Source: Mesostigma viride (Eukaryota > Streptophyta > Mesostigmatophyceae > Mesostigmatales > Mesostigmataceae). From it: a DNA stretch of 64,000 nt. Of this stretch, positions 1-61,552 are shown piece by piece; the stretch's first letter is position 1, and each line of letters begins with the position of its first letter. A model generated the notes under the pieces. The model was not told where the DNA came from and did not search any database. It was given only the letters and a program-made list of their open reading frames with translations. Location of the stretch: the NCBI GenBank assembly GCA_009746045.1, contig RPFO01000240.1:646001-710000 (forward strand). The letters are read 5' to 3'. Made by a program: the position numbers and the translations under genes.

Positions 1-1
1 C

Positions 2-391
2 TTGCGTGAAGTTAAGAAACAGTTTTCTGCTTATCGTTTTCGCGACCTTCCTCTGGCTGCGGTTCGTACCCATCTCCTCCGTGTTGCTGATTTTATGTAT
101 GCTCCTGCTCCTGTCCGTACTAGGGTCCATAACCTTGTCCTCACCCCTGAAGAAGAAGAGGCATATGTAGAAGAATTAGATATTTGTGTTACAGATGTAT
201 CTGCATTGGATGTGTCTCACATCACGTGTTATCACTGTCATGAGGTGGGCCATCTTAAGAGGGAGCGCCCCAAGTTTCTTTCTGGAGCCCCCCTCATCCC
301 AATGCCCGCCCTCCGCGTACTCCTCAGCGGGCCTCTCCCCTTCGCCCACCCTCTGGTCGTTCCTCTTCTGCTCCTCAACCCTCTCGGTTAA
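2..391 (+). pseudogene. gag C-terminal fragment with damaged zinc knuckle (A1)
   Basis: C-terminal end of the gypsy Gag, which packages element RNA. The visible part has a basic helical stretch, an acidic EEEEAYVEE patch and one CCHC-type knuckle, CYHCHEVGHLKRERPK. The last zinc ligand is Arg instead of Cys, which would impair RNA binding. Downstream the frame runs into unrelated sequence and stops at 391, and 392-635 has no open gag-like frame, so a frameshift follows the knuckle. The matching stretch of Gypsy-B (46847-47606) has the same acidic patch and knuckle. The start lies outside the window. Confidence 0.75.
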
Positions 392-635
392 ATGCTGTAC
401 AGACAGGCTCCTTAGTGAATCCCCATTCTGATCAGGATGCCGTCCCCTCTCAATACCCGCGTGATTCTCCAGCAATGGCCTTCTCACCCGGGTTTCCTCC
501 AGGGTTCGTTCCCTTGGATGATGATGTAGGGGGGGAGGGAAAACAGTAGACCTGTCAGCAGGGGGTAGCCTGGTCAGGTCCTCAGCTAGTACCCCAAGCC
601 CTGAAAATTTTTGTTTACCTGTTTTTGTCACTACT

Positions 636-1469
636 GTGGATGCTGCATCCTCTGCACCCCTGCGTGTGCGTCCTTTGATGTTTCTAAATGGTGGCCTTAC
701 CGTTCCTACTACCGTGGTAGACCCTTTTCTGCGTCCTCATGATATCCTCAATGTTTCTGTCCTCGTAGATAGTGGGGCTGCCAGCTCCTTTGTAAGTGAG
801 GCCCTTGTTAGGAGACTAGGATTAGTATCTACCCCTCATGCCTCTCCAGTGACTGTACACTATGCTGATGGTCGCACCAGTCACTCTCCTGGGACTGTAT
901 CCTTACCACTCCTCATTCAGGGTCGCCAGATTAAATTGGTGGCGACCATAGGTCCTATAACGACTGCGGATATATTGTTGGGCTTAGATTGGCATCAAGA
1001 CCACAAAATCACTATTAATTATGACACTATGGTTATATGGTTCCCTGACAATTCTTATTGGGTGCCTGAACGACACTATAAGGTAGAAAATCTTTCCTTG
1101 GTGGATATTACTCCTCCGCCTCCTCCTCAGCCTCCTCCTAGGCGTAGTATATCTGATGTCATAATTACTAAAGATCAATTACGAGCAGAACTAAAGGAAA
1201 ATGGATATTTATTATGTATGTTCCTCCAATTGGAAATACAAGAAATACCTATTAATAATGTGGGAATAGATCCTGATAAACCCAATGCAATAGGAGTAGG
1301 GTTTGACAAAACGGAGTTAGCCCGCTACATGGCTGTTATTGATTCCTCTAAGGTCTTTGAAGAAAAGACCCCCTCATACCCTCCTCCGCGTCCTGTTTTG
1401 CATCGTGTTGTGATTAAAGATGGTGCTGTTCCTACGCACTCCCCTATGTATAGAATGGGCAGAGCTTAA
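636..1469 (+). pseudogene. gypsy protease plus linker to RT (A1)
   Basis: Retropepsin-type aspartic protease that matures Gag-Pol. The catalytic motif VDSGA is followed by SSFVSEALVRRLGL, and the second hallmark is ILLGLDWH, the flap and hydrophobic-Gly pattern of gypsy proteases. A Pro-rich hinge and the conserved pre-RT segment ending in SPMYRMG follow. Relative to A2 a few bases are lost at about 1459, so the frame stops at 1469 just as RT begins. The ATG at 636 is only the first Met after a stop. In an intact copy this would be read as part of Gag-Pol. Confidence 0.85.
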
Positions 1470-2423
1470 AGAATTAAAGCAGATTCTCGTAGACCTTTTA
1501 GAGGCAGGTTTAATAGAACCCAGCAATTCCCCATATTCCGCTGGTGTTTTGCTAGTTCCTAAGCCAAATGGCAAGTTCCGCCTGGTTACTGATTATCGTA
1601 AATTGAATGACATTACTGTAAAATCTAAATACCCCTTGCCTAGAATAGACGATATTTTTAATAAAGTTAAGGGTTCCTCCTGTTTCACTGTCCTTGATTG
1701 CGCGGATGGGTTTTGGCAGTTGCGGATAGCTCCGGAGGATTGCCACAAAACTGCCTTTGCCACTCCTTTCGGACACTACCAGTTTAGGGTTGCGGCAATG
1801 GGTTTATGCAATTCTCCCTCCTCCTTCCAGATCAGCTTATGAATGACATCCTCAGACCCGTCATGGGTACCTCACACCTACCTCAAGTCTCCTCTGACCT
1901 CAAAGATCCCACTTTTTCCTCGGTTCAAATCTCTGAACATGATCGTTCTTGCGCACAAGCTTACCTAGACGATATCCTTATTTATTCCCCTGACTTCGAA
2001 ACCCATCTCGTGGACCTCAAAAAGGTTCTAGATATTATGGCCGCTAATTCCTTGTGGGCTAGGCGAGCTAAAGTGCGGTCTGGTCGTAGTGTTCCCTTCC
2101 TCGGTCACGTCCTATCTGATAAAGGTGTTGCTACCGATCCTGATAAAACAAGGTCCATCCAGGATTGGCCAGTGCCTACGGATGTCAAAAGTGTACGCAG
2201 TTCCCTCGGTCTTGCCTCCTATTACCGACGTTTTATTCCTCGGTTCGCGACTATCGCGGCTCCTATTAACCACCTGCTGAAGAAGGATATTCCTTTTGTT
2301 TTGGGCCTTGAGTGCCAACAAGCTTTTACAACCCTCAAGTCTCTTTTACTCTCGCCTCCGGTCCTCGTCTTGCCCGATACCTCACGAGCATTTGTAGTAG
2401 CTACTGACGCTATAGTAAGGTAG
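1470..2423 (+). pseudogene. gypsy reverse transcriptase, frameshifted (A1)
   Basis: Reverse transcriptase that copies element RNA into DNA. It lies in two frames: 1470-1842 holds LVPKPNGKFRLVTDYRKLN, the FTVLDCADGFWQLRI palm motif and FATPFGHYQFRVAAMGLCNSP; 1843-2423 holds the catalytic AYLDDILIYS box, FLGHVLS and the thumb leading to RNase H. The break is at about 1835, where the sequence departs from A2 next to the conserved SFQMLMN. A second break at about 2415 is a two-base gain relative to A2. All core RT motifs are recognisable, so the identification is secure although the gene is inactive. Confidence 0.93.
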
Positions 2424-3415
2424 CCATTGGGGGTGTTCTCCTCCAAGACCAGGGTCATGGTTTGCAACCCATCGAATACATCTCTAGGACTATGTTACCT
2501 GCTGAACGCAACTACCCAGTTCATCAACAAGAGTTATTAGCTGTGGTATATTGCTGTCACTCTTGGCAACATTTCCTCAAAGGGGCCCAGTTCGATGTCT
2601 GTATCTGCGAACCTTGTGATGCTGACCCTTACCGGTTGATTATTCAAACCGACCATCGTCCTCTGATTCACCTCCTGTCACAACCTAACCTCACTCCTCG
2701 GCAAGCGCGGTGGATGGAATTCCTTGCGCAATTCGCCCCATTTAAATTGCAATACGTCAAGGGCGTAGATAATATAGTCCCTGATGCTTTATCCCGACGT
2801 CCTGACTATTCCTTTTTCGAGGATCTAGATGTCCTCACTACCACCCTCGTTCCTACTCCTCTTGGTGTTTTCCCCTATGGTGACGTCCCTGATGACGGGC
2901 AGTATACCTACCTTTCCCATACCTCTGTCCGTTTTCCCGATCTCCTCTCCCATGTAGGCCTTTCTCTGCGGTGTGAGGGCACACCTGTCACCTTGGGGGA
3001 GGGGGAGGATACTAATAAAATTATTTCTTGTCCCCTAAGTCATGTGTCCACTAGGGCTGGGAAGTCGTATGGTAATGTTGTTCCTTCTGGTCCACCCCTC
3101 CTTTTCGGTAAAGCTGTGGGTGACTTGTTCAAACCCTCTGTAGATACCTCGGTAGCCAATCCTACCTCGGATTTAGAGCGTCTCATCAGTAGATTTACGG
3201 CCACTGAGCCGGAAGCCTTGACCGCAATCTCCTCACACCCTCAAAAATTTGGGAAGTACCCGTGCAAGTTTGTGGGTGGCTTCTTGTATGTGCTGTTAAA
3301 GGATGATCCTCCGCAATGGCGTTTGTATGTTCCTCCGATTTGCCGCTCCTCCTTGTTGTTTGAGTTACATGATCTAGCTGCTCACCAGGGCGGGAAGCGT
3401 GTGCGGGATTTGCCT
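2424..3415 (+). pseudogene. gypsy RNase H and severed integrase N-terminus (A1)
   Basis: RNase H removes RNA from the RNA-DNA hybrid. Visible motifs are IEYISRTMLPAERNYPVHQQELLAVVY, QTDHRPLIHLL and NIVPDALSRRPDY. A linker follows, then the start of the integrase zinc domain (ELHDLAAHQGG), after which the sequence jumps at about 3412 to the ORF3 start. In A2 the same position continues through the whole integrase (27950-29241). A1 has therefore lost the integrase core, C-terminal and chromodomain-like parts through an internal deletion. Confidence 0.9.
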
Positions 3416-3417
3416 TC

Positions 3418-5667
3418 ATGGCGACGCTTATTCCTCTCGAGGAGCGCCTGGCTGCTCCTCCGTCTCCAGATCCTCAGTTATTCCACGAGGTGCTCCCAGG
3501 CCGATGGGTCTCGCGGAGCTGCTTCCCGGGCGGCCGCGTGCATGCGGCCCTGACGCCTGACCGAGCGGCCTTAGTCCGGACAGCGCTGTGCGGTATTTCG
3601 TGGCATGCCTCTGACCCTCTGGGCCAACATCTAGCTGTGCATAGCTTCGATGACGCTGGCCGTTGTGTCCTCGGGTGTGGCTCACGCTGTCCTGCGCTTG
3701 CACAGATAGAGGCCGTGCTGCAGGGCCCGCGCATTTTTTCATACCTATCGACTCCGGATGGGCGTGCGCGCATTAGGGATATTTTTCCCTGGCTTCCGGC
3801 TGAGGGGGATGCGGAGCTCGATGAGTTCCCTTATGACCTCGTGAGGGCTGTTGAATTCATGGAGCGTGAAGATGAGGCAACCTCAGCTCCACCAGCCGTG
3901 GCTGCAGAGGTTCTAGCTTCCATGCCCCTCACGGATCTTCCTCCGGACCTCGGGCGGCCGGGTTCCTCTGGTCCAGGGTCGTCGGTGACGGTCTCCTCGG
4001 TTGCAGAGTCTCTTCCTCCGCCTGTTGACCCTGCTGTCGCCAGTCTCTCGACCGTCGTCGTGGAGATGCAAGCGCAATTCCAGGCGTTGTTGTCGGCATT
4101 CACTGCATTCACCGCGGCACCTCCGTCTGCGGTTCCCGCTCAGCCAGCCGTCGAGCCTCCGTCCGTGGTGTCCTCCGTCGCGCCTGTTCGACCGGCTGTC
4201 GGACCTGTGTCCGTGGCGTCCTCCGTTGCCCCTGTTCAACCGGTCGCCCACCTTCCGCCAGTGGAGCCCTCCGTCACACCTGTCCAGCCGGTCGCTGTCG
4301 CTCCGTCTGTGGAGCCCTCCGTCACGCCTGTTCAGCCGGCGGCTGTCGCTCCGTCTGTGGAGCCCTCCGTCACGCCTGTTCAGCCGGCCGCTGTCGCTCT
4401 GTCCGTGGCGGCCGCCGCCGCGCCTGCTCAGCCGACCGAGCCTCAGCGTCATCCAGATTTGGGCAAGGCGTCGACGGGCAAGTGGGTGTTTGACACTACC
4501 GAGGATGCGTATGATTCGGCCATGGGTGATTGGACCTCCGCCCGACCGGCCACAACGTTTTCCCCTGTCGCCACTTCCGCCGCCACCGCCTCTTCTGTCG
4601 CGCCCGCCTCCGCCGTCGTCCACCGACCGCGCGTTGCTCCTGTTGCGGCGTCCTCGGCTTCGGTCACGCGTGTCAGCGAGGTAGAGTTCCGGCATGTCAG
4701 GGCGGTAGAACTGCTCAGTGTGTTGTCCGCCGCGGACCGTGAGCGTTTTCCGACAGTGGCCCATCTAGATCCGCAGGTGTCCGATGTTGCGGTCGCTGGA
4801 CTGGCCATGTCCGCCGCCCTCTGTCGGGCTGTGGCTCTCCCTCGTGTGGCCAGTGTAGTTACCAACACGGTGTCATCGTCTCAGTTTTGCTACGCATCCT
4901 CGTTACCTCAGGAGATGAACCTCCCACTAGAGACGGATAGGCCTCCGTTTAATATGGTGGTGCTGGCCGATCCGTTGTTTGATGATGAGGTGCAGGCGCA
5001 GAGGGTCATATATCGTTGGGCGCGTGCTGCTAACGATCCTTGCTATACCTATGGTGATGTCCAGTGGGCGTATCCTCAGCCCCTGTGGATCATGCCCTCG
5101 GATGCCATGTACTTCAGTTGTCCTGTCCCTGCGGGTGCTCTCTACTCCCTGCGCATCCAGCCGGGCCTGCAGTGGGATGCTTGTCGCCCTGCGCCCCTTC
5201 CGGGTCAGGGGCTGGATGAGCCTGGGTTCCAGCCTCCGCGTACGACGGGTACCCACCTGTCGACTTACGGCTCCCGTCAGTGCTTGCGCCGCTGGCAGGG
5301 TCGTGAGATTCGGCATGTGCGTCTGTGGCCCGGCAACGTGGAACGTTTCCTGGATTTGTTTTTCACCTCTGTTGCTCGTGGTGAGCTGGTCTTCCATCGG
5401 TTCCTCCTGCGCGCCCTCCTTCTGCTGTCGGCAGAGCCCTTCGTGCGACAGTTTCAGTGTGGGTTCCTTGACTGGGCCCGTGGACAGGTGGTTCTGACAC
5501 AGCATCGTTACTACTGGGCTTTCCTCGGCATGTATCCTGATGGCGTCTGGGAGGATGTGTTCCTCCATGTAGACAGGCATGATAACCCTGCTGATGTTGC
5601 TCATCACCGGGCGTACCTGGATGTGCTTTTGGCCACCCGTGGTACTTTTCAGGCTACTGGTGTGTAG
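3418..5667 (+). CDS. ORF3, extra gypsy protein of unknown function (A1)
   Basis: A 749-residue open frame downstream of pol and upstream of the 3' LTR; I do not recognise the family. Three parts are visible. Residues 1-160 contain PGRWVSRS (about 27-34) and three Cys spaced C-x3-C-x3-C (83, 87, 91), then IFSYLST and FPWLPAEGDA. Residues about 160-430 are a Pro/Ala/Val-rich spacer with tandem repeats. Residues about 430-749 form a folded-looking region with ETDRPP, PLPGQGLD, EIRHVRLWP and FLDWARGQVVLTQHRYYWAF. No signal peptide or clear membrane anchor is seen, so it does not look like an envelope protein. Copies occur at 18012-18308, 29318-30042 plus 50967-52577 and, more diverged, at 30848-33472 in Gypsy-B. 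The start is chosen because the N-terminus aligns with the A2 copy. Confidence 0.8.
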   Translation: MATLIPLEERLAAPPSPDPQLFHEVLPGRWVSRSCFPGGRVHAALTPDRAALVRTALCGISWHASDPLGQHLAVHSFDDAGRCVLGCGSRCPALAQIEAVLQGPRIFSYLSTPDGRARIRDIFPWLPAEGDAELDEFPYDLVRAVEFMEREDEATSAPPAVAAEVLASMPLTDLPPDLGRPGSSGPGSSVTVSSVAESLPPPVDPAVASLSTVVVEMQAQFQALLSAFTAFTAAPPSAVPAQPAVEPPSVVSSVAPVRPAVGPVSVASSVAPVQPVAHLPPVEPSVTPVQPVAVAPSVEPSVTPVQPAAVAPSVEPSVTPVQPAAVALSVAAAAAPAQPTEPQRHPDLGKASTGKWVFDTTEDAYDSAMGDWTSARPATTFSPVATSAATASSVAPASAVVHRPRVAPVAASSASVTRVSEVEFRHVRAVELLSVLSAADRERFPTVAHLDPQVSDVAVAGLAMSAALCRAVALPRVASVVTNTVSSSQFCYASSLPQEMNLPLETDRPPFNMVVLADPLFDDEVQAQRVIYRWARAANDPCYTYGDVQWAYPQPLWIMPSDAMYFSCPVPAGALYSLRIQPGLQWDACRPAPLPGQGLDEPGFQPPRTTGTHLSTYGSRQCLRRWQGREIRHVRLWPGNVERFLDLFFTSVARGELVFHRFLLRALLLLSAEPFVRQFQCGFLDWARGQVVLTQHRYYWAFLGMYPDGVWEDVFLHVDRHDNPADVAHHRAYLDVLLATRGTFQATGV
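4138..4420 (+). repeat. tandem repeat in the ORF3 spacer
   Basis: Degenerate, then nearly exact, repetition of a 48-bp unit encoding the pattern PSVEPSVTPVQPAAVA. The last two to three units (about 4265-4415) are almost identical; earlier ones are eroded. The unit length is a multiple of three, so copy number can change without breaking the frame. Confidence 0.8.
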
Positions 5668-6039
5668 ACAGAGGGCTCTAGGCCCGACCTGAGGGTGTTG
5701 TCCCTCCGGTATATAGAGTCGCCCTCAGATTCTGGCCAGTTGATTGGTCGTTCTTGGTCCTTGGTACTGATTTGTTTACTCTGTGTGTCCTGCCCAGTGC
5801 CGTCCCCCCCCGGCAAGGACTCTGTTCCAGGCAGTTAGGGGAACCTCCCACCAGGCTTGGTGCTGGCTAACCCTACACCACCCGGCGTGGTGGTGAAACC
5901 GAGTTAACATGTTGGTGCTTTGTACCTTGGATGGCCTGTCGATTGTGTTAGGCTTTGTTGGGTGCTTTAGATCCTCCTTCTCCTTTGGTTTCATCCGTGT
6001 ACGTAGGGCGAGGGCTCCCTACCTTTGTGGGGGGGAAGG
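5668..6039 (+). other. 3' untranslated region and polypurine tract of A1
   Basis: Non-coding stretch between the ORF3 stop and the 3' LTR. It is conserved in the copies at 18309-18674 and 52578-52945 (shared GTATATAGAGTCGCCCTCA and other blocks). The last 13 or so bases before the LTR form a G-run, the expected polypurine tract priming plus-strand synthesis. Confidence 0.75.
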
Positions 6040-6612
6040 TGTTACGTCGCGTAACTTTTGTTGTTGTTACGGACGTAAATTAGGTCCTTTGTGCCTCAGC
6101 CATTTCGAGACAGTCCGTTGACTTTCTTAAGCTTACGTGTAGTTAGGACCTTTTTGGCCGGTTGGTACCGGGCCTTGTGACGTGGCAATCGTACAGTATG
6201 GTGGCTTGGTGCAGTCGCGCCGCGCTGCGTACTTTAGTAGTGGTCCTTTATCCTCCGTTTGAACCTTGTGGACATGCGTTGGTCCTGTAGGCGAGGGTCG
6301 GTGTCGGCCCGAGCATACACGCATGTCGGCGATCATTTATGCAGCGGTTGTCCTTCGTGAATCGCACTCGGCGTGTATTATGGAATTGTAATACATCGTT
6401 TTGGGTCGTGAATTTACCAGTGTTTACTTCGTAGTGTCCCGGCATTATTTGGTATATGGCGTACAGTAACCGCATGTATCGGAATGCATTGAGAGCAGAG
6501 TCGTCGCGTCCTAGGTCTTATAGCCAATACAGCTCCTCATCGCTAGGTACCCTCACTAGTTTAGGTAAGGTTAGGCGCGGGGTTTGGGATCGAGTAGAGC
6601 CTGGGCGTAACA
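6040..6612 (+). repeat. 3' LTR of gypsy A1
   Basis: 573 bp bounded by TGTTACGTC and GGGCGTAACA, an inverted TGTTACG/CGTAACA end, directly after the polypurine tract. It is clearly the same LTR as 18675-19228 and 52946-53498 at both ends, though diverged in the middle. The partner 5' LTR lies outside the window, so no target duplication can be scored. Confidence 0.88.
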
Positions 6613-8283: not shown

Positions 8284-8290
8284 CTAGCTA
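8275..8290 (+). promoter_or_regulatory. candidate stop-codon readthrough site, gag to pol
   Basis: Gag ends ...CAG CAG TGA CTA GCT and the pol frame continues with no other stop. UGA followed by CUAG is the best-known eukaryotic leaky-stop context. Gag and pol share a frame and abut, the arrangement expected when readthrough makes Gag-Pol. Function is inferred from context only. Confidence 0.5.
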
Positions 8291-10227
8291 CATCATCCCC
8301 TGTAAATAGTCAATCACCCCTAGGGGAAGGTGTGCTGGATGTACATAAGGACGGGGGTGTGCCCCTTGTGCAGCACCAAGGGTGTAAAGATGTTGTTCTT
8401 CCACTGGATTGCAATAACAATGCTGCAGCTGAATTCCCTATGCCTCATGCAGGTGGTGGGTCTCCAGCAGGTGCTGGCCTGGAGGGCCAAGGGACCTTGC
8501 TGGAAGGGCCTGGAGCGGTCCAGGGTGCAGGGCCTGGCTTGGGGCGTCAGGATGGCCTGCAGGGAAGCCCTGGAACCTCAGGAGTGGATCATGTGTCCCC
8601 ACACACGGTTCAGACGTCTCGCCAGGTCAGTACTGAGAGAGTACTGAGCTATGCTGAGGCTGGCCATAGGTTACATCACATGTTTGGGCACTCTGGGCAG
8701 GCAGCAATGTTTGCTTGGAAGCTAGGTAGGGAGCCTTTGTGGGAGGCATGCCAGGCTGCTGCTGAGAACTGTGGTTGCCAGGAGAATGCTGTTCACCCAC
8801 CTCAGTCCCATGCTAGGGAGCCTGCTAGGGAGCGTGGCGACATCCAGATGGATATCCAGCATATCAGGGGCTTGTATATATTGGTGGAGGTGGACAGGTT
8901 CAGTAGATACAGGCTGATAGACGTTCTGCCTGGTATGCAGGAGCACCACTTGTTGTTGGGTATGAAGGCCCTGGTCCCAGGCTTTGGGGTGTGCAAGAGT
9001 GTGCAGGCAGACTTGCAGTTTGACTGTTTGCTCAAGCATCAGGACCAGCTGCCTTGTAAGCTGGTAGTAGTCCCCAGGGAGAGTCATGGGCAGCAAGGGG
9101 CTGTAGAGAGATCCATACGTGAGGTGAAGACAGTGGTGCTAGCGGCAGAGACAGTGCCACTTGTGGCATCTGCCTTAGAGAGGGCAGCCTGGTGTAAGGG
9201 GATAGAAGAGCAGCTGAACCACAGAGTTAACTATTACTTTGATGGTGTGGCTGTCTCTCCCCTGGCCCTGCAGTATAGCGTACTGCCTGAGAACGTGGTG
9301 CAGGCCAGTCTTAGGAAGGCAGATAGGTTATTTGCCCAGCTGAGACGTAAGGACAAGAACTGGAATGTGCTGAGGCCTCAGGTGGGGCTGAAGGTCAGGA
9401 TGTGGAAGGAACCATCTATTCCAGGCAAGCGGGGGAAGTGGCAGGATGGGGTTGTCACTCGTGTGGAAGAAGCTAACAGATCTTGCCTGGTGGCTTTGGA
9501 AAAGGATCCAAGGCACGTGTACAGGTTGTCCTGGGCTCATGTCAAGGAAAGAAGGCCACGTGCAATCTGGCCTGCAGACGGGCCAGGCCCTCCCAGCTGG
9601 GTTGAGGAGCCAGGCCAGAGCCAGGCAGCAGCAGCTAACAATCCTCTGGTGGTGGATGATGGTCTGTCCCTGCTGGAAGATGACGAGCAGGAGGAGGCTG
9701 CTGAAGCAACTGTCACAAGGCCAGAGGGGACGGGGCAGCCACCTAAGGCCCGGGGGCCTCTCATGGCGGACGTCATCCGAGCACTCATGCGCAGCAAACA
9801 TGATCCCAAGGTATCCAAGCTCACGGGGTGGGGGTCGTGCTGGGCAGCTACAATGGAGGTAGATACCAACTCACAGGTGTCTGTCATCAGGGAAGAGGAT
9901 GCTGTAGGCTTACAGATGTCCCATCCCAGTTGCCTTGCTGTGTCTGATTTCTCAGGAAAGGTGTCCATGAAGATCCTTGGGGAAGTGAGTGTGCCTATCT
10001 TAGGGGTGCCCACCACGTTCTGTGTGGTAGAGGGCTATCAGGGGCCTGCCATTCTGGGTCAGAACTTCTTGTGCATGCCAGGGGTTACTTTGACCTCTGA
10101 TGAGTTGGCACTAGAAGGCAGGGGCAGCCTCCCCCTTGAAAGATATCACTATTCCCAGGGTCTTGCAGTGGCGGTGAAGGCTGTTAGAGTCAGCCAGCTG
10201 AGGGTCCTCAAGGTCAGGAGCCCATAG
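8284..10227 (+). CDS. copia-1 pol: integrase then protease-like domain
   Basis: Open frame (first Met at 8332, 631 residues) continuous with gag after the TGA. The integrase zinc region has HRLHHMFGH and CGC. The catalytic core runs GDIQMDIQHI, VQADLQFD and HGQQGAVERSIREVK, giving the D, D, E positions. A basic C-terminal segment GKRGKWQDGVVTRV follows, then a Glu-rich hinge. From about 9830 comes a retropepsin-like segment: VDTNSQVSVI, SDFSGKV, VPILGVP and AILGQNFL. It has DTN where DTG/DSG is expected. A protease-like domain after integrase is the reverse of the usual copia order (PR before IN) but recurs in copia-2 and copia-3. Confidence 0.8.
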   Translation, partial: LATSSPVNSQSPLGEGVLDVHKDGGVPLVQHQGCKDVVLPLDCNNNAAAEFPMPHAGGGSPAGAGLEGQGTLLEGPGAVQGAGPGLGRQDGLQGSPGTSGVDHVSPHTVQTSRQVSTERVLSYAEAGHRLHHMFGHSGQAAMFAWKLGREPLWEACQAAAENCGCQENAVHPPQSHAREPARERGDIQMDIQHIRGLYILVEVDRFSRYRLIDVLPGMQEHHLLLGMKALVPGFGVCKSVQADLQFDCLLKHQDQLPCKLVVVPRESHGQQGAVERSIREVKTVVLAAETVPLVASALERAAWCKGIEEQLNHRVNYYFDGVAVSPLALQYSVLPENVVQASLRKADRLFAQLRRKDKNWNVLRPQVGLKVRMWKEPSIPGKRGKWQDGVVTRVEEANRSCLVALEKDPRHVYRLSWAHVKERRPRAIWPADGPGPPSWVEEPGQSQAAAANNPLVVDDGLSLLEDDEQEEAAEATVTRPEGTGQPPKARGPLMADVIRALMRSKHDPKVSKLTGWGSCWAATMEVDTNSQVSVIREEDAVGLQMSHPSCLAVSDFSGKVSMKILGEVSVPILGVPTTFCVVEGYQGPAILGQNFLCMPGVTLTSDELALEGRGSLPLERYHYSQGLAVAVKAVRVSQLRVLKVRSP

Positions 10228-17079: not shown

Positions 17080-18011
17080 TCCCAGCCATTGGACTAGGTA
17101 ATGTGCCTTGACTTTAATCTATCACCAAGTTCCCAAGGAAAGGTTGGGACCTGACCAAGGGGTCAGGGGATAACCTGGGGTGACCTCTGATTCACTGGCC
17201 AGTACACCTAGCCTGGTCCAAGGGCGTATATGTTGTTCCCCGAAAGGAGGCAGGACCCTGGGCCCTATCAGGTCTGATCAACCCCAAGGGACCAAGCGGT
17301 CTGTGGCTGAGTGGGCACAAGCAAGGCTAGGCTTGTTTCAAGCTGGTCCAGCTCCAAAAGAAGAAAGGTTTGGAGTTAGCATTTTGGGCAACCAATATGC
17401 TAAGTGGATGCAGTTTGGAAAGACCTTTCCAACGCCGTGCTGACCGCCTGAAACAGACAAGGGACAAGAAAGATATCAAGTCCCGAAGTCCTAGCCATCC
17501 GTGGCCGACTATAGGGTGTAGTCCTCTGGTATAGTGGCAGGCCGTGCCTGCACAGGCTTAGCCTGTCTATCACGTGACTGTGGTCCACGTAGACCAGGGG
17601 GAGCAGCAGCCTGTGACTGGTAGGGTACTGGAGCTGGCACAGGGCTGCAAGGATACTAGACCTTGCAGGCTTGTGACAGGTCCTGTACTTCCTAGGTTGC
17701 AGAGCCTAGGCAAATCCAGTACGTCCTGGCTCTGCACTGATGCCAGTGGACGTTGTGGATTTGCTTGCACGCCTGCACGTGCCTCGTCATGCCGATGGGA
17801 ACGAGGACCAACACAAAGGATATAGCTTGGTCATGGGGGATGACCAGCTATCTCGGAAAGCACGAACCGTGGGTGCCACCTTGGTCGTGGAAGTGCCCAC
17901 AGTGGTCGTGGCCTGGTGCATGGATTTAAGGTTGCTGCCTTGCAACATTGGCTATTAAAGCCGTGCTGTGAAAGACCAAGAGCTCACATACGTGGGGAGC
18001 TCTTTCTAACT
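17080..18011 (+). other. gene-free region between M1 and the ORF3 fragment
   Basis: No supported gene. If copia-1 has a long 3' LTR entered by M1, this is its second half: it ends CTTTCTAACT, matching the AACT end of the other copia-like LTRs, immediately before gypsy ORF3 sequence. I found no matching 5' LTR, so the assignment is tentative. Confidence 0.35.
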
Positions 18012-18308
18012 GGTTTGCGTCATCGGATCCGGTACCATCGCCTGCTCCTGCGGGCCCTCTGTTTGATCGCGGTAGAGCCTTTCCTACGCCTCTTTGCCTG
18101 TGGCTTCCTGGACTGGGCCCGTGGCCAGGTGGTCCTTACGCAGCATAGGTACTACTGGGCCTTCCTGGGCCTTTTTCCTGATGGCGTGTGGGCCGATGTT
18201 TTCCTCACTGTAGATAGGCATGATAATGCCGACGACGTGGCCCACTACCATGCGTATCTGGATGTTCTGCTGGCCTCGCGTGGCACTTACCAGACTGATG
18301 GCAACTAG
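18012..18308 (+). pseudogene. ORF3 C-terminal fragment of a gypsy-A copy
   Basis: About the last 100 residues of ORF3, beginning abruptly at GLRHRIRYHRLLLRALCLIAVE and ending at the normal stop. It is almost identical to 52281-52577. It includes the conserved FLDWARGQVVLTQHRYYWAF block. It is followed by the same 3' UTR, polypurine tract and LTR as the intact copies, so it is the truncated 3' end of a gypsy-A element. Confidence 0.85.
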
Positions 18309-18674
18309 ATAGAGGGTCCTAGGCCCGACCTGAGGGTGTTGTCCCTCCGGTATATAGAGTCGCCCTCATATTCTGGCCAGTTGATTGGTCGTTCTTGGTC
18401 CTTGGTGCTGATTTGTTTACTCTGTGTGTCCTGCCCAGTGCCGTCCCTCCCGGCAAGGCCTCTGTGCCAGGCAGTTAGGGGACCCTCCCACCAGGCTTGG
18501 TGCTGGTTAACCCTACACCACTCGGGGTGGAACCGAGTTAACTTGTTGGTGCTTCGTATCTTGGACATGGCCTGTCGATTGTGTTGGTGTGTGCTGGGTG
18601 CATTAGGTTCCTCCTACCCCTTGGTTTCCTCCCTGTGTGTAGGGAGAGGGCTCCCTACCTTTGTGGGGGGGGAG
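18309..18674 (+). other. gypsy-A 3' UTR and polypurine tract
   Basis: Nearly identical to 52578-52945. It ends in the G-rich polypurine tract (about 18662-18674) abutting the LTR. Confidence 0.75.
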
Positions 18675-19228
18675 GTGTTACGTCGCGTAACAATTCGTTG
18701 TAGTTACGGACGTAAATTAGGTCCTTTGCCTCGGTCGTTCCTAGGTTTACGTGTAGTTTGTACTGGGACACTGTTGTCCTCGTAACCGTACTGTGGTGCA
18801 TTGGATGCTTTTGGGCGTCGCGCCGCGTACTTTATTAGTGGTCCTTATCCTTCGGGCAGAATGTAGTGGACCAGCGTGCATCTGTACATTTGTAGGCGAG
18901 GGCCAGGTCAGCCCGAGCATGCTGGACCGTTGGTGATCATTTATGCACGTTCTACCCCTCGTGTTGGCACTCGGCGTGTGTTAAATGAATTAACACATAT
19001 TAGCTTGGGTCACGGCAGTGTAGTTGTGTTTCCTTCCTCTATTCCTGGAGTAAACGGGTTTGTGTAAATGGCTTATGGCGTATTATAGTAATACATACGT
19101 GAATGCATTGAGATCTGGATCGTCTCGTTCGTCTTTCGCTAGGGGATTAAGTAGAGGTGGCCTGACTAGTTTAGGTAGCGTTAGGCCAGGTAGAGGTAGA
19201 GGTGGTGGTACAAGCTTAGGGCGTAACA
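18675..19228 (+). repeat. gypsy-A LTR shared between two partial elements
   Basis: 554 bp, TGTTACGTC to GGGCGTAACA. It is preceded by an ORF3 end plus polypurine tract (so it is a 3' LTR) but followed directly by protease sequence, with no primer-binding site or gag. It matches 52946-53498 closely over the first 420 bp or so and less well over the last 130 bp. Confidence 0.85.
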
Positions 19229-29317: not shown

Positions 29318-30042
29318 ATGACGGAACCTACCCCTCCGATGGAGACCCTGCCGCCTACCCCTGATCCGGAGCTATACTATGAGGCCCTTCCGGGCCGGTG
29401 GGTCTCCAGATCCAGCTTCCCTGGTGGCCCAATCCATCCCGCCCTGCAGGCGAGTCACGCTGCTTTGGTCCGGGCCGCCCTCTTTGGGGTCTCCTGGTTC
29501 GGGGCAGACCCCCATGAACCGCAGCAGTTGGTTGTTCATGGTTTCGACGACGCTGGACACTGTCTCCTTGAGTGTGGGTCCCGGTGCCCTGCCTTGGGGC
29601 AGATAGATGCAATCCTTCAGTGTCCTAGGATTTTCTCATACCTGTCTACCCCTGTGGACCGCTCCTGCCTCTGGGAGGTCTTCCCTTGGCTTCCGGCCGA
29701 GGGCGATGCCGTGTTAGATGACCACCCATGTGATCTCCTGCGGGCGGTTGAGTTCATGGAGATTGCGGACCAGTCGGCGGGGGTGTTAGCACATCATTGG
29801 CGATCCTTCCCCTGTGGATGCACCGGTAGAGTCGCAGTACACGCCGGAGTATTCGGCCTCAGTCGCAGCTTCCTCCTCCTCCGTGTCGGCGCCTTCTCCT
29901 GTTCCGTCATCACCGCGGTCGACCAGCCAGGCGCGTGTCGGTGGAGCCGACGCCTACCCCTCCAGGCGTGGATCGAGAGCCTGACCACCTTGCGGCTACT
30001 GTGTCTGCAATGCAGGCCCAGATCCAGTCCTGAGCCTCGGCA
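29318..30042 (+). pseudogene. ORF3 N-terminal part (A2), cut by Gypsy-B
   Basis: N-terminus of the extra gypsy ORF. Motifs shared with A1: PGRWVSRSSFPGG, CLLECGSRCPALGQID (C-x3-C-x3-C), IFSYLSTP, FPWLPAEGDAVLDD. The clean frame runs to about residue 155. A frameshift and a stop then mark the spacer, although the alternative frame still shows LATVSAMQAQIQS, matching A1 LSTVVVEMQAQFQA. Gypsy-B then interrupts at TTCGG, and the spacer and C-terminal domain resume at 50967. The start ATG at 29318 is supported by the A1 alignment; the same frame is open upstream to 29192. Confidence 0.8.
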
Positions 30043-30047
30043 TTCGG

Positions 30048-30623
30048 TGTTACGTCCCAGCCCAGACACACCTAGCCTGAGCTACGTAGCGAAAGATCCT
30101 CCTTGCCGGAATTAGGAATAATTCAAGGTGGCCTAATGTAGATTGCGCTTCACGACGTGAGTCGTGAGATATCTGGCACCACGGCTTGATGCCAAGCTAA
30201 TTGTACACACTTATATTGGCTAGCAATACCAATTACAAATGGATAATTGCCCCGGGCTCAATGTGTAGGCGTATTCGCACTTATCATTCATCAAACCAAG
30301 AGGACGAGACTCTCGTCCTCGGACTAATTTAACCTAGGTCGGTTGCGGCGCAGATACACGCCAATTCCTCTAGAACACTCCAAGTCAATCATTCCACGTA
30401 GGATCCGGGCCGACATCGACCCTCAACTACAGGATCCACGCATAGAACTACACAGAACTGGCGCGGCGCCACGGCACCGGCCCCTAAAAGGTCAACCTAG
30501 GACCAAAATAACTAGTCCAATTCACACAATAGCCAAGGTCCATAAAACCCAAATACAACAGACCAAACGGCCTTAGTAATTTATTCCATTGTTACGTCCG
30601 ACCAAAAGGGCCGGGACGTAACA
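30048..30623 (-). repeat. 3' LTR of Gypsy-B
   Basis: 576 bp, TGTTACGTCCC at the left edge and GGGACGTAACA at the right edge, so the ends are inverted repeats. Just outside at about 30624-30645 is a C-run which, read on the minus strand, is the G-rich polypurine tract; this fixes orientation. Confidence 0.92.
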
Positions 30624-30847: not shown

Positions 30848-31849
30848 CTAGCGTCCGCCGCTGGTGGCACGCCGCTGCTGCTGGGCCTCAGTGAGAGCCC
30901 TACGCCCCGCGTGAGTCATTTGCCGGATCATGATCCCGGGGTGCGAGCACAGATGACACTCAAAGGCCACCTGGTAGGGAGACACCTTCTGTCGGCCCAT
31001 CCTGGATAGCTCCACCCACGTACCCCGGGGCCACATGGACAGGAACCCGGCAAGGTACTGGGGGTGGGTAAATAGAAGAGTCAGTGCCGACCGATCCACC
31101 ACCCCACAGCGGTGCTCACGAACAAAGTGCACTCCCATCATAAAAACCTCCGTGCGCACGTGATCATCGTTGATTGTCGCCCTCTGCGCCCCTGCGATAT
31201 CGAGCACCACCCGGTCCAGAAAGACACGCCCCTCCGTTGGGGCCACCTTGGGAGGCGCCACCACGTGTCCCACCCCATCCACCTGATATCGCCAATCCCA
31301 CCAGTCTTCGGAACCAAACCGCACAGTATGCCCCACCACCAGGGGAAGACGAGGATCGACGGGTTGCGGTAGGGGCAGTGGAACCTGAGGGAAGAAAGTG
31401 ATCTCTACTTGTTCCCAGTAGGCACCGCGATCCACCGCGCACCAGGGACCCGCTTGAAACACCAAAGGAGCGGGCAGATGCATGCCAGGAGGGGCCTGGA
31501 GAGACGGAGGTCCCTCGAACATCACACACAGCTTCTCCGTACGGGGCCCTGGCCCACCGTGTCTCACCGCCCTGCCCGGTACCGCCCGTATGAAATCCCC
31601 CATTGACCACTCCTCGTGTGAAGACCCCGGAGCCCTGGAAGCTGCATCATTGCCCACGGATGTGGCGGCCGAATGATCGCCTTGGCGACCGTGCTGGACC
31701 AACAAGCGCTGTATCAGGTCCTGTCCCGATTGTACCGCTGCCACGAGCGCCTCGAGGTGTACCACGGGCTCCGCCGGCACCAGAATGCCCGTATCTCTGG
31801 GACCTTCCGCGACCCGAGGTGGCGTCTCCGCCATGGTATATGTAGGCAC
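30848..31849 (-). pseudogene. ORF3 C-terminal domain (Gypsy-B)
   Basis: 333 residues, unknown function. The C-terminal block CGVVDRSALTLLFTHPQYLAGF with MWPRGTWVEL aligns with A-family CGFLDWARGQVVLTQHRYYWAF and MYPDGVWEDV; the following QVAFECHLCSH matches HHRAYLDVLLA. Position is also the same: after integrase, before polypurine tract and LTR. Overall similarity is low but the pattern and spacing agree, so I read it as a diverged homologue of A-family ORF3. No membrane segment is visible. Confidence 0.65.
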
Positions 31850-31869
31850 GGTTCCTCCGCGGAACGGTG

Positions 31870-32597
31870 CTAGTGTCGCCCCGACGTGGTGGGTCTGCTG
31901 GGTCCCTCCACGGGACGTGACATTGACGATCCGGCTCGGTCAGGCCGGGGACGTGGGTCCAAGGAGACCAGGAAGGTAGGCTCCTGTGGTTCCACTTCCG
32001 GCCGGGGACGGGGCTCCAAGGAGACAATGAAGGTAGGCTCCTGTTGTCCCACCACCGGCGGTGAACTCACGGGAACCGCATCAGAGGGCCCACACCTGGC
32101 CGGCTGTTCTGTCCTAGCCACAGTGGTCTCCGTCGTATCTTGCCGCGGTCGCCGGGCCTCCCGCTCCAACTCCAGCGGAGCCCCCCACGTGCGTTCCCAG
32201 TGACCATCTTCCGGGCGACGAGGTGGCGGCCCGCTCGGCGAGCGGTTCGTACCTCGGTACCCGAGTCCGAGCGGGAGCGCGAGCGTGAGGGAGGTGAGGG
32301 CGAACGACGACGTACAGGTCGTTCTGGAGCACGCCGAGGAGCTGATTGACTGCCCCCGCCCCATCCCGTGGCCCTCGGAAGATTCCGCGCCTCACGCCCG
32401 GGGGGTCGCCCCCAGCCTGTTGCCGGCGGAGGCGCCTCATAACGCGCCACAGGACGGGATCCTGCGCCGCCCTCCAAGGTGCCCCGAGACGGTGGATCCC
32501 GCGGAGGAGAGCGAGGGAGAGGGCGTGAGGGGTAGTCGTCGGAATCGGAATCGTAGCCCTCACTCCCATCGTCCTGGTCTTCGTCATCCATAGTCAC
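31870..32597 (-). pseudogene. ORF3 low-complexity spacer (Gypsy-B), frameshifted
   Basis: Region linking the two ORF3 parts, in shifting frames (32597-32067 and 32364-31870). It is acidic at its start (TMDDEDQDDGSEGYDSDSDD), then Arg/Ser/Pro-rich with an SR-like run (RRRSPSPPSRSRSRSDSG), then a duplicated motif QEPTFIVSLEPRPRPE / QEPTFLVSLDPRPRPD. It corresponds to the Pro/Ala-rich repeat spacer in the A family. Composition differs but the role as a flexible linker seems conserved. Confidence 0.6.
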
Positions 32598-33472
32598 GAT
32601 GCGATCCAGAGCCTGTCGTAGCGAATACTGCCCCGCACGTACATAGGCACTTTTCGCCCCGCAACGCCCCCTCCGACGGAAGGTACCGGGGAAAGTGGTT
32701 CCCCAGCAGGTTCCGCACCGCTGGTGGATTCAAGAAGGAGCAAAAGCCGTGGAAATACCAGGCCCGCATCCAGCGTGTTCACGCACGCGTGGCAAAGGCA
32801 CTCCTGCTCATGGGTATCCCAATCCGTGCCGACCACCACGCCGTCGCGCTCTGCGGTGCGGGTCTCGACCTTGAACCCCACATTCCTCCGCACGAACCAT
32901 CCAAAATTCTCCAACTGCGCGGGGCCGACCCGCGCCAGAATGGAATCGGCGCGGAGATCCGAAGGCATCCGGTTACGGCGCCGACGTCGGCGTTCCAACA
33001 GGACTTCACCATCCCGACCATAGTCACGCAAGAACACTCGGGGATTAAATGTCTCCTCGTGCAGCTCTTTCACTAGCTGCATCATGCGCGCGTCCGGTGC
33101 TCCGGGCCGAGACGACGTATCTTGCCGGCGTTCGCGACCGGATGAAGGCCCCGTCTGCGAGCCACCACCTCCCGACCCCCCGGCCCCCAAGGCACCCTCT
33201 GGGACCGCAGGCTCTCCGCGCGCTGTCTGCGTCCTCGCATCCCTTTCTGGTTGAGGGATCTCAAGCTGGTCTGGCATGTCCATGTCAACCAGATCTTCTT
33301 CGCTGGACTTGTCATCTGCTTCCCGGATTTCTGCATCTGCCGCCTCCGCGGCGCTGAAGGAAGTCGGGCCCCTGGGAAGCGCCTCCGCGGCGTCCCCCTG
33401 CACAGCCCACACACAAGATACCAGGGCATTAGTCGGCGTGTACCTGGTACCCGGCTCACACACCACTTTCAC
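32594..33472 (-). pseudogene. ORF3 N-terminal part (Gypsy-B)
   Basis: Frame of 292 residues. After an acidic/Ser-rich lead come a basic run (LLERRRRRRNRMP), NFGWFVRRNVGF, and a Cys cluster ECLCHACVNTLDAGLVFPRLLLLLES. The latter aligns in order with A-family PGRWVSRS and the C-x3-C-x3-C block ending GPRIFSYLST. Just before the frame stops, the neighbouring frame reads SLRQALDRIVTMDDED, matching A-family DLVRAVEFMERED, so a frameshift lies near 32600. The true start is unclear because the upstream sequence is open. Confidence 0.6.
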
Positions 33473-38095: not shown

Positions 38096-38204
38096 GGGGT
38101 CATATTGGGGCCCAGGGGAGGGGGGGGTGTAGCTGTGTCTGCCCCTGGGAGCGACCCGTGGGGTACTACCACCTCAGATGCTACGACAGGCGCATTATCC
38201 TTCA

Positions 38205-49284: not shown

Positions 49285-49626
49285 CTACTGTCTGCTAGGG
49301 CCAATGGTCAACTGAGAGAAGGTAACTGTAACTGCTGTCCCCTCCTCCTGACTGCTGAGCGTGGGTGGCTTGGAGCATTCACGAGTGGTGTGCATCCCCT
49401 CAGGCAATGGCACGTGTTCCCTAACAAACCTATCTGCATCTGTGATGTTATCAAACCCCTTCCACTTAGCACTAGAGTCTTTGGACATTATCTTATCCTT
49501 GATGTGTTCTTCACATGCCTTCCAACTATAAAATATGGCTGGTCTACCCTCGCCCCCATCATGGGCCACGGCATAGTAAGGAAATCCAGATTGACCACCC
49601 TTATTTATTCTGTTGCGTCTGGGCAT
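49285..49626 (-). CDS. viroplasmin / RNase H1 hybrid-binding-like small ORF (Gypsy-B leader)
   Basis: 113 residues, minus strand, between 5' LTR and gag. GFPYYAVAHDGG, IFYSWKACEEHIKD, AKWKGFDNITDADRFV match the pattern of the small domain at the N-terminus of RNase H1 and in caulimovirus viroplasmin: YYAV, then Y.SW..C, then K.F....A..F. That domain binds RNA-DNA hybrids or double-stranded RNA. A dedicated copy ahead of gag is unusual for a gypsy element. The frame is open and ends in a Ser/Thr-rich tail. It could be a captured host RNase H1 fragment or come from another nested element, but the leader continues on both sides. Confidence 0.65.
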   Translation of the reverse strand: MPRRNRINKGGQSGFPYYAVAHDGGEGRPAIFYSWKACEEHIKDKIMSKDSSAKWKGFDNITDADRFVREHVPLPEGMHTTRECSKPPTLSSQEEGTAVTVTFSQLTIGPSRQ

Positions 49627-49639
49627 GTTACATCATAGG

Positions 49640-50382
49640 CTGGCAGAGGCTTGCAAGCAGGAGAGAAGGGGGGGATCCCAGGCTACCTCTAGGTGCAGTG
49701 ACCTTTACCAAAACAAACGAGGGAGAAGCACAGAGTCTAACACAGCACACGCCCGAGCTTTCCGCGGCAAGGGCTATACGATAAGCACACGGAGGTAAAC
49801 ACCGTCAACACAGTCGGCAACAGCCAGACGGTATCCACCCCCACGACCCCTTGCAGGTCAAACAACGATGTCCGTCTCCGCGACGCCATAGGCACCAACG
49901 ACATTTACAACCTATAGAGCCGGGTACAACGTATAACATAACCCCCCTACGCGTGCGGTCCCGGAGAGAAAGCGAGCTCGCCAGCTAGCCTTCAGCAGGC
50001 ATAGCTTGTAAAGAAGGAATTCTAACTAGGGGACGTACCATCGTCGATGACGTTAATCCCCCCTGAGCTGGCCGCCACCTGGTGTCGTTGAAGGCAAGCC
50101 CTGGCCGCCACTAGGTGTCGTTGAAAACAGGAGAGATGAGCGCTATCGTTGACAGCACCTCACCACAGGACTATTGCTAGCCCCGCCGAGTATCCCAGAC
50201 TGGCCGCTTGCTGTCTAGGTCGTCGTTGAACCCCTTTACGGGCTGGCCGCCGACCTGTCAGCAATCGTTGAATTCCGGAACCTCTACCTACGCCAAGCTC
50301 CGCCTTGGTATCCTAATTGGCCTCACTAACCCTCTCCGCGAGAGTTAGCTAACCTTTCCAGCACATTTCCTAGGATAACCAG
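49640..50382 (-). other. Gypsy-B 5' leader with tandem repeats
   Basis: Untranslated leader between LTR and the first ORF. It holds four degenerate repeats of a CTGGCCGCC...GTCGTTGAA unit (near 50066, 50102, 50195 and 50246; plus-strand reading). The minus-strand sequence next to the LTR is CTGGTTATCCTAGG, a possible primer-binding site that I cannot match to a tRNA. Confidence 0.6.
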
Positions 50383-50961
50383 TGTTACGTCCCAGCCCAG
50401 ACACTGTCACCTAGCCTGAGCTACGTAGCGAAAGATCCTCCTTGCCGGAAGTAGGAATAATTCAAGGTGGCCTAATGTAGATTGCGCTTCACGACATGAG
50501 TCGTGAGATATCTGGCACCACGGCTTGATGCCAAGCTAATTGTACACACTTATATTGGCTAGCAATACCAATTACAAATGGATAATTGCCCCGGGCTCAA
50601 TGTGTAGGCGTATTCGCACTTATCATTCATCAAACCAAGAGGACGAGACTCTCGTCCTCGGACTAATTTAACCTAGGTCGGTTGCGGCGCAGATACACGC
50701 CAATTCCTCTAGAACACTCCAAGTCAATCATTCCACGTAGGATCCGGGCCGACATCGACCCTCAACTACAGGATCCACGCATAGAACTACACAGAACTGG
50801 CGCGGCGCCACGGCACCGGCCCCTAAAAGGTCAACCTAGGACCAAAATAACTAGTCCAATTCACACAATAGCCAATATCCATAAAACCCATTACAACAGA
50901 CCAAACGGCCTTAGTAATTTATTCCATTATTACGTCCGACCAAAAGGGCCGGGACGTAACA
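50383..50961 (-). repeat. 5' LTR of Gypsy-B
   Basis: 579 bp partner of 30048-30623. Differences seen by eye include a small insertion near the left end (CACTGTCACC against CACACC), several substitutions and a small indel near 50876-50895. Confidence 0.92.
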
Positions 50962-50966
50962 TTCGG

Positions 50967-52577
50967 GGCCTTCATGGCGTCCCAGTCGCCTGCTTCAGTC
51001 GCGCCAGGTGTGGCGTCTGTTGCTGCTGTGCCACCTACCCCTCCTGTTGCCTCGGTGACTACGGCTTCGCCTGCGCCCCAGTGCGAGCCCGCGGTCGCTG
51101 TGGTTTCGTCTGCTGCTGCGACTCCTACGCCTCCTGCTGCCTCCGCGCCTGTGACTGCCGTACCTGCGCCTTCGCGCGAGTCTTCTGCCCCTGCGGTCGC
51201 GCCCGCCGTCGCTGCTTCCGAGCCTCCACAAGCTCCGTCGCAGCCATCGCGGGGCTTCTTTGGCGATACGAGTGGGCTTCCCAGGCTCTGGGAGGGTGGT
51301 CCCCCGCAGCGGGTTCCAGTGCCAGACTGGAGCCTGGATGGTAGCCAGTTTTATGGCAAGGTGCCTGTCCCCACGGGCCCCATTTTCAACATGTGGCCTG
51401 AGGGTGCGCCTCCACCTGAGACCGGGGTGCCAGCTGCGGTGGCGGGTCCTTCGCGGTCTCCTTCGGCAGCGGGTCCGTCGCGGCCTCCTGTGACGCCGGC
51501 GCCCTCTGCGCGCCTGTGCAGGATCCTACCCCTGTTTCGGTTCCGGCCCCTTCAGCTCCGCGCTCGTTGGCTGCGGTTGTTAGGGCCAGCGGCATTGATC
51601 ATCGCTCCCTCCGCGCTGCCGACTCCTTAAGGGAGTTGTCCCAGAGCGATCGGGATCGAGCCCCCTCTGTGGTGCATGCTACGCCGGAGCCGCGAGATTC
51701 GCCAGTTCCTGGGTATGGTATGTCTGCGATCGCCTGCCGACAGTGTGACCTGCCGCGCGTCGCTGCCGAGCTGGCTATTTCGCCCATGTCCTATGGGTTC
51801 TCCCAGGTGTGTCGGGCGCCGCGTGACCGTAGCCTACCCGTTGATACCGATCGGCCTCCGTGTGACATGGTTGTTTTAGCAGATCCTGTGTTCCAGGGTG
51901 AGATCCTGGTTCGGCGAGTCCTGTATCGTTGGGCGCGGCGTCACAACGACTTGGACACCTACGGTGGTTACCAGTGGGCTTACCCTCCGCCTCTGGGCAT
52001 TATGGCCTCAGATGCCCTTACGGTCGAGTATCCTGCGGTGCCTGGTGCTACGTATGGCGCGGTTCTCCTGCAGCCTCTCCTGGAGTGGGATGCCCGCCGT
52101 CCAGCGCCCCTCCCGGGCCAGGGCCTGGACTCCCGTGGCCATCCTCCCCCTCGGGCTAGCGACTATCTGGAGACGTTCGGGTCGCGACAATGCGCTCGTC
52201 GGTGGCGCTCACGTGAGATTCGGCACATCAGGTTGTGGCCGGCTAATGTGGAGCCTCTGCTAGATCTGTTCTTTCCGACGGGTTTGCGTCATCGGATCCG
52301 GTACCATCGCCTACTCCTGCGGGCTCTCTGTTTGATCGCGGTAGAGCCTTTCCTACGCCTCTTTGCCTGTGGCTTCCTGGACTGGGCCCGTGGCCAGGTG
52401 GTCCTTACGCAGCATAGGTATTACTGGGCCTTTCTGGGCCTTTTTCCTGATGGCGTGTGGGCCGATGTTTTCCTCACTGTAGATAGGCATGATAATGCGG
52501 ATGATGTGGCCCACTACCATGCGTATCTGGATGTTCTGCTGGCCTCGCGTGGCACTTACCAGGCTGATGGCAACTAG
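50967..52577 (+). pseudogene. ORF3 spacer and C-terminal domain (A2), after Gypsy-B
   Basis: Second half of the interrupted A2 ORF3. The first frame (50974-51630) is the Pro/Ala/Ser-rich spacer with FNMWPEGAPPPETG. The second (51516-52577) is the C-terminal domain: SLRELSQSDRDRAPSVVHA, PVDTDRPPCDMVVLADPVF, RRPAPLPGQGLDSRG, EIRHIRLWPANVEPLLDLFF, CGFLDWARGQVVLTQHRYYW, FPDGVWADVFL, DNADDVAHYHAYLDVLLASRG. It matches A1 throughout, with a frameshift near 51520. The conserved block keeps its reading while the spacer varies freely, consistent with selection on the C-terminal domain during the element's active life. Confidence 0.82.
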
Positions 52578-52945: not shown

Positions 52946-53498
52946 TGTTACGTCGCGTAACAATTCGTTGTAGTTACGGACGTAAATTAGGTCCTTTGCC
53001 TCGGTCGTTCCTAGGTTTACGTGTAGTTTGTACTGGGACACTGTTGTCCTCGTAACAGTACTGTGGTGCATTGGATGCTTTTGGGCGTCGCGCCGCGTAC
53101 TTTATTAGTGGTCCTTATCCTTCGGGTAGAATGTAGTGGACCAGCGTGCATCTGTACATTTGTAGGCGAGGGCCAGGTCGGCCCGAGCATGCTGGACCGT
53201 TGGTGATCATTTATGCACGTTCTACCCCTCGTGTTGGCACTCGGCGTGTGTTAAATGAATTAACACATATTAGCTTGGGTCATGGCAGTGTAGTTGTGTT
53301 TCCTTCCTCTATTCCTGGAGTAAACGGGTTTGTGTAAATGGCTTATGGCGTATTATAGTAGCACATACGTAAATGCATTCAGATCTGGATCGTCTCGTTC
53401 GTCTTTCGCTAGGGGTTTAACTAGAGGCGGCCTTACTAGTTTAGGTAGCGTTAGGCCGGGTAGAGGTAGAGGTGGCGGTAGAGGTTTAGGACGTAACA
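52946..53498 (+). repeat. 3' LTR of gypsy A2
   Basis: 553 bp, TGTTACGTC to GGACGTAACA. Closely related to 18675-19228, with differences concentrated in the last 130 bp or so. Confidence 0.9.
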
Positions 53499-61545: not shown

Positions 61546-61552
61546 CTAGCTT

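Follow-up and report, generated by a model that had tools for sequence, protein, structure and literature searches.

Additional open reading frames (ORFs) in sense orientation, termed aORF-3S or eORF-3'F, have been described between pol and the 3' long terminal repeat (LTR) of SIRE, Athila and Bagy-2, and spliced expression is reported for that of Bagy2 (PMC7264820). The extra ORFs of plant LTR retrotransposons are reported to be highly divergent and of doubtful function, and the gypsy element Ogre has a partly spliced RNA containing an intron (PMC6317226). Retand codes for TRP28, a conserved unknown protein, in antisense between pol and the 3' LTR (PMC11963269). The Chlamyvir clade is specific to algae (PMC6317226) and has chromodomains (PMC3350952). 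Outside the retrotransposons, Rev, Tat, Nef and Vif are named as retroviral accessory genes (PMC7264820). In this report we analyze ORF3, a gene of gypsy elements in the streptophyte alga Mesostigma viride, starting from 64,000 nucleotides of contig RPFO01000240.1 (assembly GCA_009746045.1, positions 646,001 to 710,000, forward strand; hereafter the window). The window holds two copies of one lineage, A1 and A2, which belong to the subfamilies A_I and A_II, respectively, and a copy of a second gypsy lineage, B, that is inserted in A2. L-numbers denote element copies elsewhere in the 440-Mb assembly searched.

ORF3 is a real, conserved and selected third gene of a known kind, a sense extra ORF behind pol. 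It resembles aORF-3S and eORF-3'F in position, orientation and length (749 amino acids in A1 and frames of up to 884 codons in B, where the class takes in ORFs of at least 250 codons), but, unlike these plant ORFs, it is conserved across two lineages whose reverse transcriptase (RT) and integrase pieces are 64-75% identical, and it has no convincing membrane domain. It shares its location with TRP28 of Retand, which differs in being antisense; the two are likened by description, not by sequence. Unlike the Ogre intron, the putative ORF3 splice site would give access to a gene of its own further downstream. Retroviral accessory genes are expressed by splicing. Like Rev, Tat, Nef and Vif, ORF3 is a downstream gene outside Gag, Pol and Env, an analogy that claims no relation in sequence. 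What is unusual in ORF3 is that one protein family spans two lineages and carries indirect signs of spliced expression.

We lean towards the reading that ORF3 is a selected gene shared by A and B, probably expressed from a spliced subgenomic RNA as a soluble accessory protein. In the mechanism proposed, a third, sense gene of chromodomain gypsy elements would be common to A and B by descent and kept by purifying selection. Its product, of about 750-800 amino acids, would have a Cys/His domain at its N-terminus and a conserved domain at its C-terminus, joined by a low-complexity spacer that varies, with no convincing membrane signature. Translation would be from spliced subgenomic RNA, with a 3' splice site just upstream of the start, and would not depend on the frame of pol. 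More tentatively, the protein may be an accessory factor rather than an enzyme, capsid or envelope, and may aid the cycle of the element in the cell by handling nucleic acid or by countering host control.

Two copies outside the window give the plan of the element. In L009 (A_I), the end of the LTR is followed by a leader and a small ORF0. The gag frame comes next, open for 586 codons and with a CCHC knuckle recognized by eye; protease, RT and RNase H precede the integrase, in which the zinc finger, core, SH3 and chromodomain are all present. ORF3, the 3' untranslated region (UTR), a G-rich polypurine tract and the LTR complete the element. The RT of this copy is damaged by a small LTR-like insertion. 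L010 (A_II) has the same gene order from gag onward. In both copies ORF3 lies in sense orientation, with pol before it and the 3' LTR behind it, and a chromodomain (PF00385) above cut-off lies past the integrase, which places them among the chromoviruses (gypsy). The chromodomain of A2 in the window scores only 13.9 bits, under the cut-off of 25.1, and a Pfam scan found none in the window's B integrase piece at 33693-34739. The initial annotation, made from the letters of the window, had proposed a conserved extra protein downstream of integrase in two gypsy lineages, which is supported. Its statement that all copies of the protein follow a chromodomain-like tail fails for A1, in which homology to intact pol ends at 3412, ORF3 comes directly after, and the integrase core, SH3 and chromodomain are absent. 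A2, in which protease directly follows the 5' LTR, raised the idea that ORF3 is a relocated Gag. This was rejected: L009 and L010 carry gag upstream, and A2 has therefore merely lost it. As a separate observation, the ORF0 between LTR and gag codes in both lineages for an RNase H1 N-terminal hybrid-binding domain (Cauli_VI, PF01693; 29.1 and 30.6 bits, cut-off 21; minus strand of the window at 49288-49626, and 687-1154 of the reverse complement of L009).

Copies of ORF3 are numerous and have been kept open. Searching the genome with the A1 protein gave 72 matches, with the best 60 of 29,132 candidates scored, so that counts are lower bounds. All 12 matches that cover residues 1-749 at 99-100% identity (A_I) are free of stops, as are 29 of the 30 full-length A_II matches, which are about 50% identical to A1 (50-52% for 11 aligned A_II copies). 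The search with B ORF3 (112 of 1,230 candidates scored) gave 113 matches; their frames reach 884 codons, apart from one of 1241 codons that includes integrase. A DNA search with an A_II start, in which 40 of 727 candidates were scored, found 40 identical hits. The ratio of nonsynonymous to synonymous substitution rates (dN/dS) was estimated by the Nei-Gojobori method with our own script. For the N-terminal block, spacer and C-terminal block it is 0.086, 0.300 and 0.079 within A_II (55 pairs), and 0.132, 0.254 and 0.156 within B (36 pairs). Between A_I and A_II (11 pairs) the values are 0.131 (7 finite), 0.350 and 0.218, dS being close to saturation in this comparison. Purifying selection acts on both blocks and less on the spacer. 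The argument of the initial annotation that conservation across lineages implies function agrees with ratios of 0.08-0.16 in both blocks within families. The diverged A copy L077 was tried as a further comparison and discarded as decayed and uninformative.

By profile comparison, A and B ORF3 are homologous in the N-terminal Cys/His block and in the C-terminal block. The C-terminal blocks align with 36.6 bits in blastp and with E 8.8e-5 (probability 60) in hhalign, and the N-terminal blocks with E 8.5e-4 over 124 columns, at a low probability of 24. When compared with 100 column shuffles for each block, the C block scored 42.9 (probability 78) against a shuffled maximum of 23.4, and the N block 25.9 (probability 18) against 19.0. 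The two blocks are collinear in A and B. These alignments uphold the plan of N-terminal Cys block, spacer and C-terminal block that the initial annotation had described as shared. A failure of the A and B profiles to align above background, which it had named as counting against its reading, did not occur. Given the identity of the RT and integrase pieces between A and B, ORF3 diverges much faster than they do.

In A1 the frame is open from 3373 to 5667, and the ATG at 3418 gives the 749 residues originally reported. Conserved in the N block are W, H and the Cys cluster, followed by PR, P..R, FP and LP. The description of the family as unrecognized has held: Pfam gave no significant family for ORF3 (one listed hit, E 0.25, under its cut-off) and no zf-CCHC hit, and sequence and profile searches of PDB gave no match. 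Residues 430-749 of A1, the part used in the protein search outside the genome (7,995 candidates scored), matched only three proteins, all labelled jgi/Mesvir1, which we take to stand for M. viride, at 58-59% identity over 94-99% of the query. These are 80-90% identical to the A-type ORF3 that ends at 52574 and 92-93% identical to the piece at 18003-18305, and are taken as element copies.

Spliced expression is suggested by the sequence in front of ORF3. In A, a pyrimidine tract and CAG end 5 nt before the ORF3 ATG, and the 47 nt before the end of CAG are without another AG in six of seven aligned sequences, the seventh, L074, having one at 34. There are 24 A_I-like hits, 23 of which span the ORF3 start. 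The tract and CAG followed by CCTTCATG are kept in 21 of these 23, and the two without the site are A1 and a twin copy located 15.9 kb from it on its own contig. In A_II the site is kept in 18 of 19 loci, an LTR interrupting the remaining one, and in all 38 further starts. An acceptor-type site is also present in the diverged A subfamilies L074 and L076. In B, a splice-site-like CAG lies about 110 nt before the ORF3 ATG. Each of the 20 distinct places where the putative exon start GGGGACGCC, or a near variant of it, was found has CTRAY...CAG in front of it, the diverged L054 and L056 among them; eight other B loci lack the exon stretch and were not counted.

The two A copies without the site have a structure of their own. 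In A1 and its twin, pol sequence ending in GGGATTTG joins CCTTCATGG directly, and L009 has a 1342-bp segment, GTAACC...CACAG, in between, with a 1-nt overlap. Because A1 lacks exactly a GT...AG segment that ends at the ORF3 CAG, it looks like a reverse-transcribed spliced RNA. Alternatively, the junction could be an ordinary deletion in the genome, and the conservation of the CAG a matter of chance or of translation, which we regard as somewhat unlikely. A deletion would fit a single event with a 1-nt overlap at the junction, and no spliced sister copies were found in A_II. However, among 200,000 random deletions of at least 300 bp in the same region, 1,547 were compatible with GT-AG and only 86 (0.04%) also had a tract-YAG. 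Moreover, the same type of site is kept in the diverged A subfamilies and in B.

Several points weigh against a spliced accessory gene. The spliced junction counts as one event, since A1 differs from its twin at 2 positions in the first 3893. It occurs in none of the 38 further A_II starts, and a junction pattern for A_II, exact and fitting only part of the A_II variants, had no matches. The GT of the donor falls within a codon that is under constraint from the integrase protein, so that it may be cryptic, and splicing from this donor alone would leave ORF3 far from the 5' end of the RNA. A sequence in the leader of L009, ACAG/GTAAGG, is a candidate for another donor. The copies counted are related, and most are not independent witnesses. 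Upstream of the ORF3 ATG in the window copy of B, the putative splice site is followed by two ATGs that are out of frame, which makes the start of B ORF3 uncertain. In L003, L009 and L010, pol and ORF3 are in one frame with a single TAG between them. Finally, the structure models are poor, with a mean pLDDT (predicted local distance difference test) of 41 for the C block (block means of 48-73 for residues 201-320) and 45 for the N block, and therefore show no biochemical activity.

That ORF3 is instead a structural component of the particle that is produced in bulk, either a second Gag-like protein or a minor capsid protein, is distinctly unlikely. ORF3 is large and matches no enzyme, and its divergence between A_I and A_II is Gag-like: in one A_I/A_II pair dN/dS is 0.162 for Gag (69% identity) and 0.040 for integrase, beside 0.13 and 0.22 for the ORF3 blocks. 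However, a normal gag lies upstream, recognized by eye from its zinc knuckle in A and by a zf-CCHC match in B of 18.0 bits, under the cut-off of 20.8. Foldseek comparison of the C-block model with PDB and BFVD returned nothing at E 0.001 or better, and thus no capsid fold, the model being weak.

Extension of Pol into ORF3 by stop readthrough or frameshift would dispense with a spliced RNA altogether, and is improbable. The single TAG between in-frame pol and ORF3 occurs in A_I and in the A_II copy L010; in B, L041 is open for 1241 codons through integrase and ORF3, and the end of pol reads in the ORF3 frame in L049 and L051. The frame of ORF3 relative to pol nevertheless varies among copies. 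In the A_II copies L013, L022 and L024 it is not that of the end of pol, and among 11 further B copies listed, 7 do not read the end of pol in the ORF3 frame. In addition, the stretch in A that begins at the pol stop and includes the ORF3 ATG differs in length through indels (83-92 nt). A conserved readthrough of the pol stop is therefore not favored.

A degenerate or divergent envelope-like gene is very improbable. ORF3 shares with env its place, behind pol and ahead of the 3' LTR, and its probable spliced expression, and internal Kyte-Doolittle maxima over 19 residues reach 1.56-1.92, near the range of membrane helices. A hydropathy scan, however, found no hydrophobic N-terminal stretch (maxima there of -0.5 to 1.1). 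The internal maxima are placed differently, that of A being in the C block and that of B in the N block, and by eye the segments concerned carry Arg, Glu or Pro. Searches of Pfam, PDB and viral folds gave nothing significant. A captured host gene, for which no supporting point was found, is hardly credible, as ORF3 has no Pfam domain and its sole protein-search matches are the three Mesvir1 proteins taken as element copies, host genes not having been searched separately. The initial annotation had contemplated a match to a known capsid, envelope or host domain; none turned up within what was searched.

The composition of ORF3 offers a lead towards its role. In A_II, 12 of 13 copies (about 765 amino acids) contain no lysine, where about 6 are expected from codon composition. 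Lysine is mildly short in B (6-11 found and 11-15 expected, 12 copies), and is above expectation in all 6 pol pieces and all 3 gag pieces compared alongside A_II ORF3. The shortage is real in A against each gene's own codon composition, and it stays a lead because the copies are related and the effect in B is mild. A bolder scheme, which we consider quite doubtful, would join a retrovirus-like plan (ORF0 with the hybrid-binding domain, gag, pol, spliced ORF3) to a near lysine-free A_II ORF3 that acts alongside the host ubiquitin system or evades it, for instance to remove a silencing factor.

Features of the window that bear on ORF3 are collected in Table 1.

Table 1. Coordinates of ORF3 and of the A1, A2 and B copies in the window
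Feature	Position	Strand	Remarks
A1 gag end, protease, RT, RNase H, integrase zinc finger	1..3412	+	integrase core, chromodomain missing
A1 junction lacking 1342-bp GT...AG segment of L009	3412..3413	+	putative exon-exon junction
A1 ORF3, 749 amino acids	3418..5667	+	intact
N-terminal conserved block, residues 14-154	3457..3879	+	H-C-C-C cluster
Pro/Ala/Ser/Val-rich spacer, residues 155-420	3880..4677	+	less constrained (dN/dS)
48-bp (16-residue) tandem repeats within spacer	4158..4438	+	
C-terminal conserved block, residues 421-749	4678..5664	+	
A1 3' LTR	6040..6612	+	end inferred from L009; G-rich polypurine tract just before
Tail of another A copy (ORF3 C-terminus, 3' UTR, polypurine tract)	18001..18675	+	upstream of A2 5' LTR
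A2 5' LTR	18676..19228	+	TGTTACG...CGTAACA
A2 ORF3, N-terminal part	29318..30048	+	frame-broken, interrupted by B
B 3' LTR	30048..30623	-	
B ORF3 from likely ATG	30848..33283	-	start codon uncertain; frame-broken: 33532-32594, 32729-32067, 32391-31870, 31939-30848
B putative 3' splice site	33397..33398	-	CTAAT branch-like motif, CAG/GGGGACG
B ORF0, small, before gag	49288..49626	-	RNase H1 N-terminal (Cauli_VI) domain
B 5' LTR	50382..50961	-	
A2 ORF3, remainder past B insertion	50962..52574	+	
A2 3' LTR	52946..53498	+	

The other ORF3 copies of the window had been read correctly in part. The A2 protein is split by B at 30048, as first proposed (29351-29776, 65% identical to the N-terminal half of A1 ORF3 over 142 amino acids; 50962-52574), and is frame-broken as well. 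The piece at 18012-18308 is indeed an ORF3 C-terminus, but it belongs to the tail of another A copy and not to A2. B does carry a diverged ORF3 with blocks homologous to those of A, but the window copy is scattered across three frames; intact B copies occur elsewhere. The B LTRs are 98% alike and are flanked by a TTCGG target duplication read by eye. The stretch 18001-19228 is a repeat of 52270-53498 (97%), from which came the idea that ORF3 extends into the LTR. It was dropped, as the LTR begins at TGTTACG and what precedes it belongs to another copy's tail.

A copies seem to stand head to tail and share an LTR, the ORF3 tail preceding the LTR of the next copy at 18001-19228; L001 seems likewise arranged (about 3748-4833), with a leader motif about 1 kb past the end of ORF3. 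The 3' UTR between ORF3 and the polypurine tract (5667-6039; 18309-18675) is included in a 704-nt match in which A_I and A_II are 84% identical, and is possibly an RNA element. Elsewhere in the window, a tandem satellite with units of about 126 bp, judged from self-match offsets, occupies 61547-63686. The usual order of copia-like elements is gag-protease-integrase-RT. In copia-like sequences at 8284-10227, 22561-23163 and 37337-38173, a retropepsin-like stretch seemingly lies between integrase and RT (by eye only).

Literature on gypsy elements of M. viride was not found in a limited search by titles and the starts of abstracts, and ORF3 is not claimed to be unpublished. One ORF3 family is present in two well separated gypsy lineages, with measured selection, a conserved splice-site-like motif and a copy that resembles a processed RNA. 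ORF3 adds a protein family in which no known domain was found, and it makes accessory genes in cell-bound retrotransposons a testable question in a streptophyte alga.
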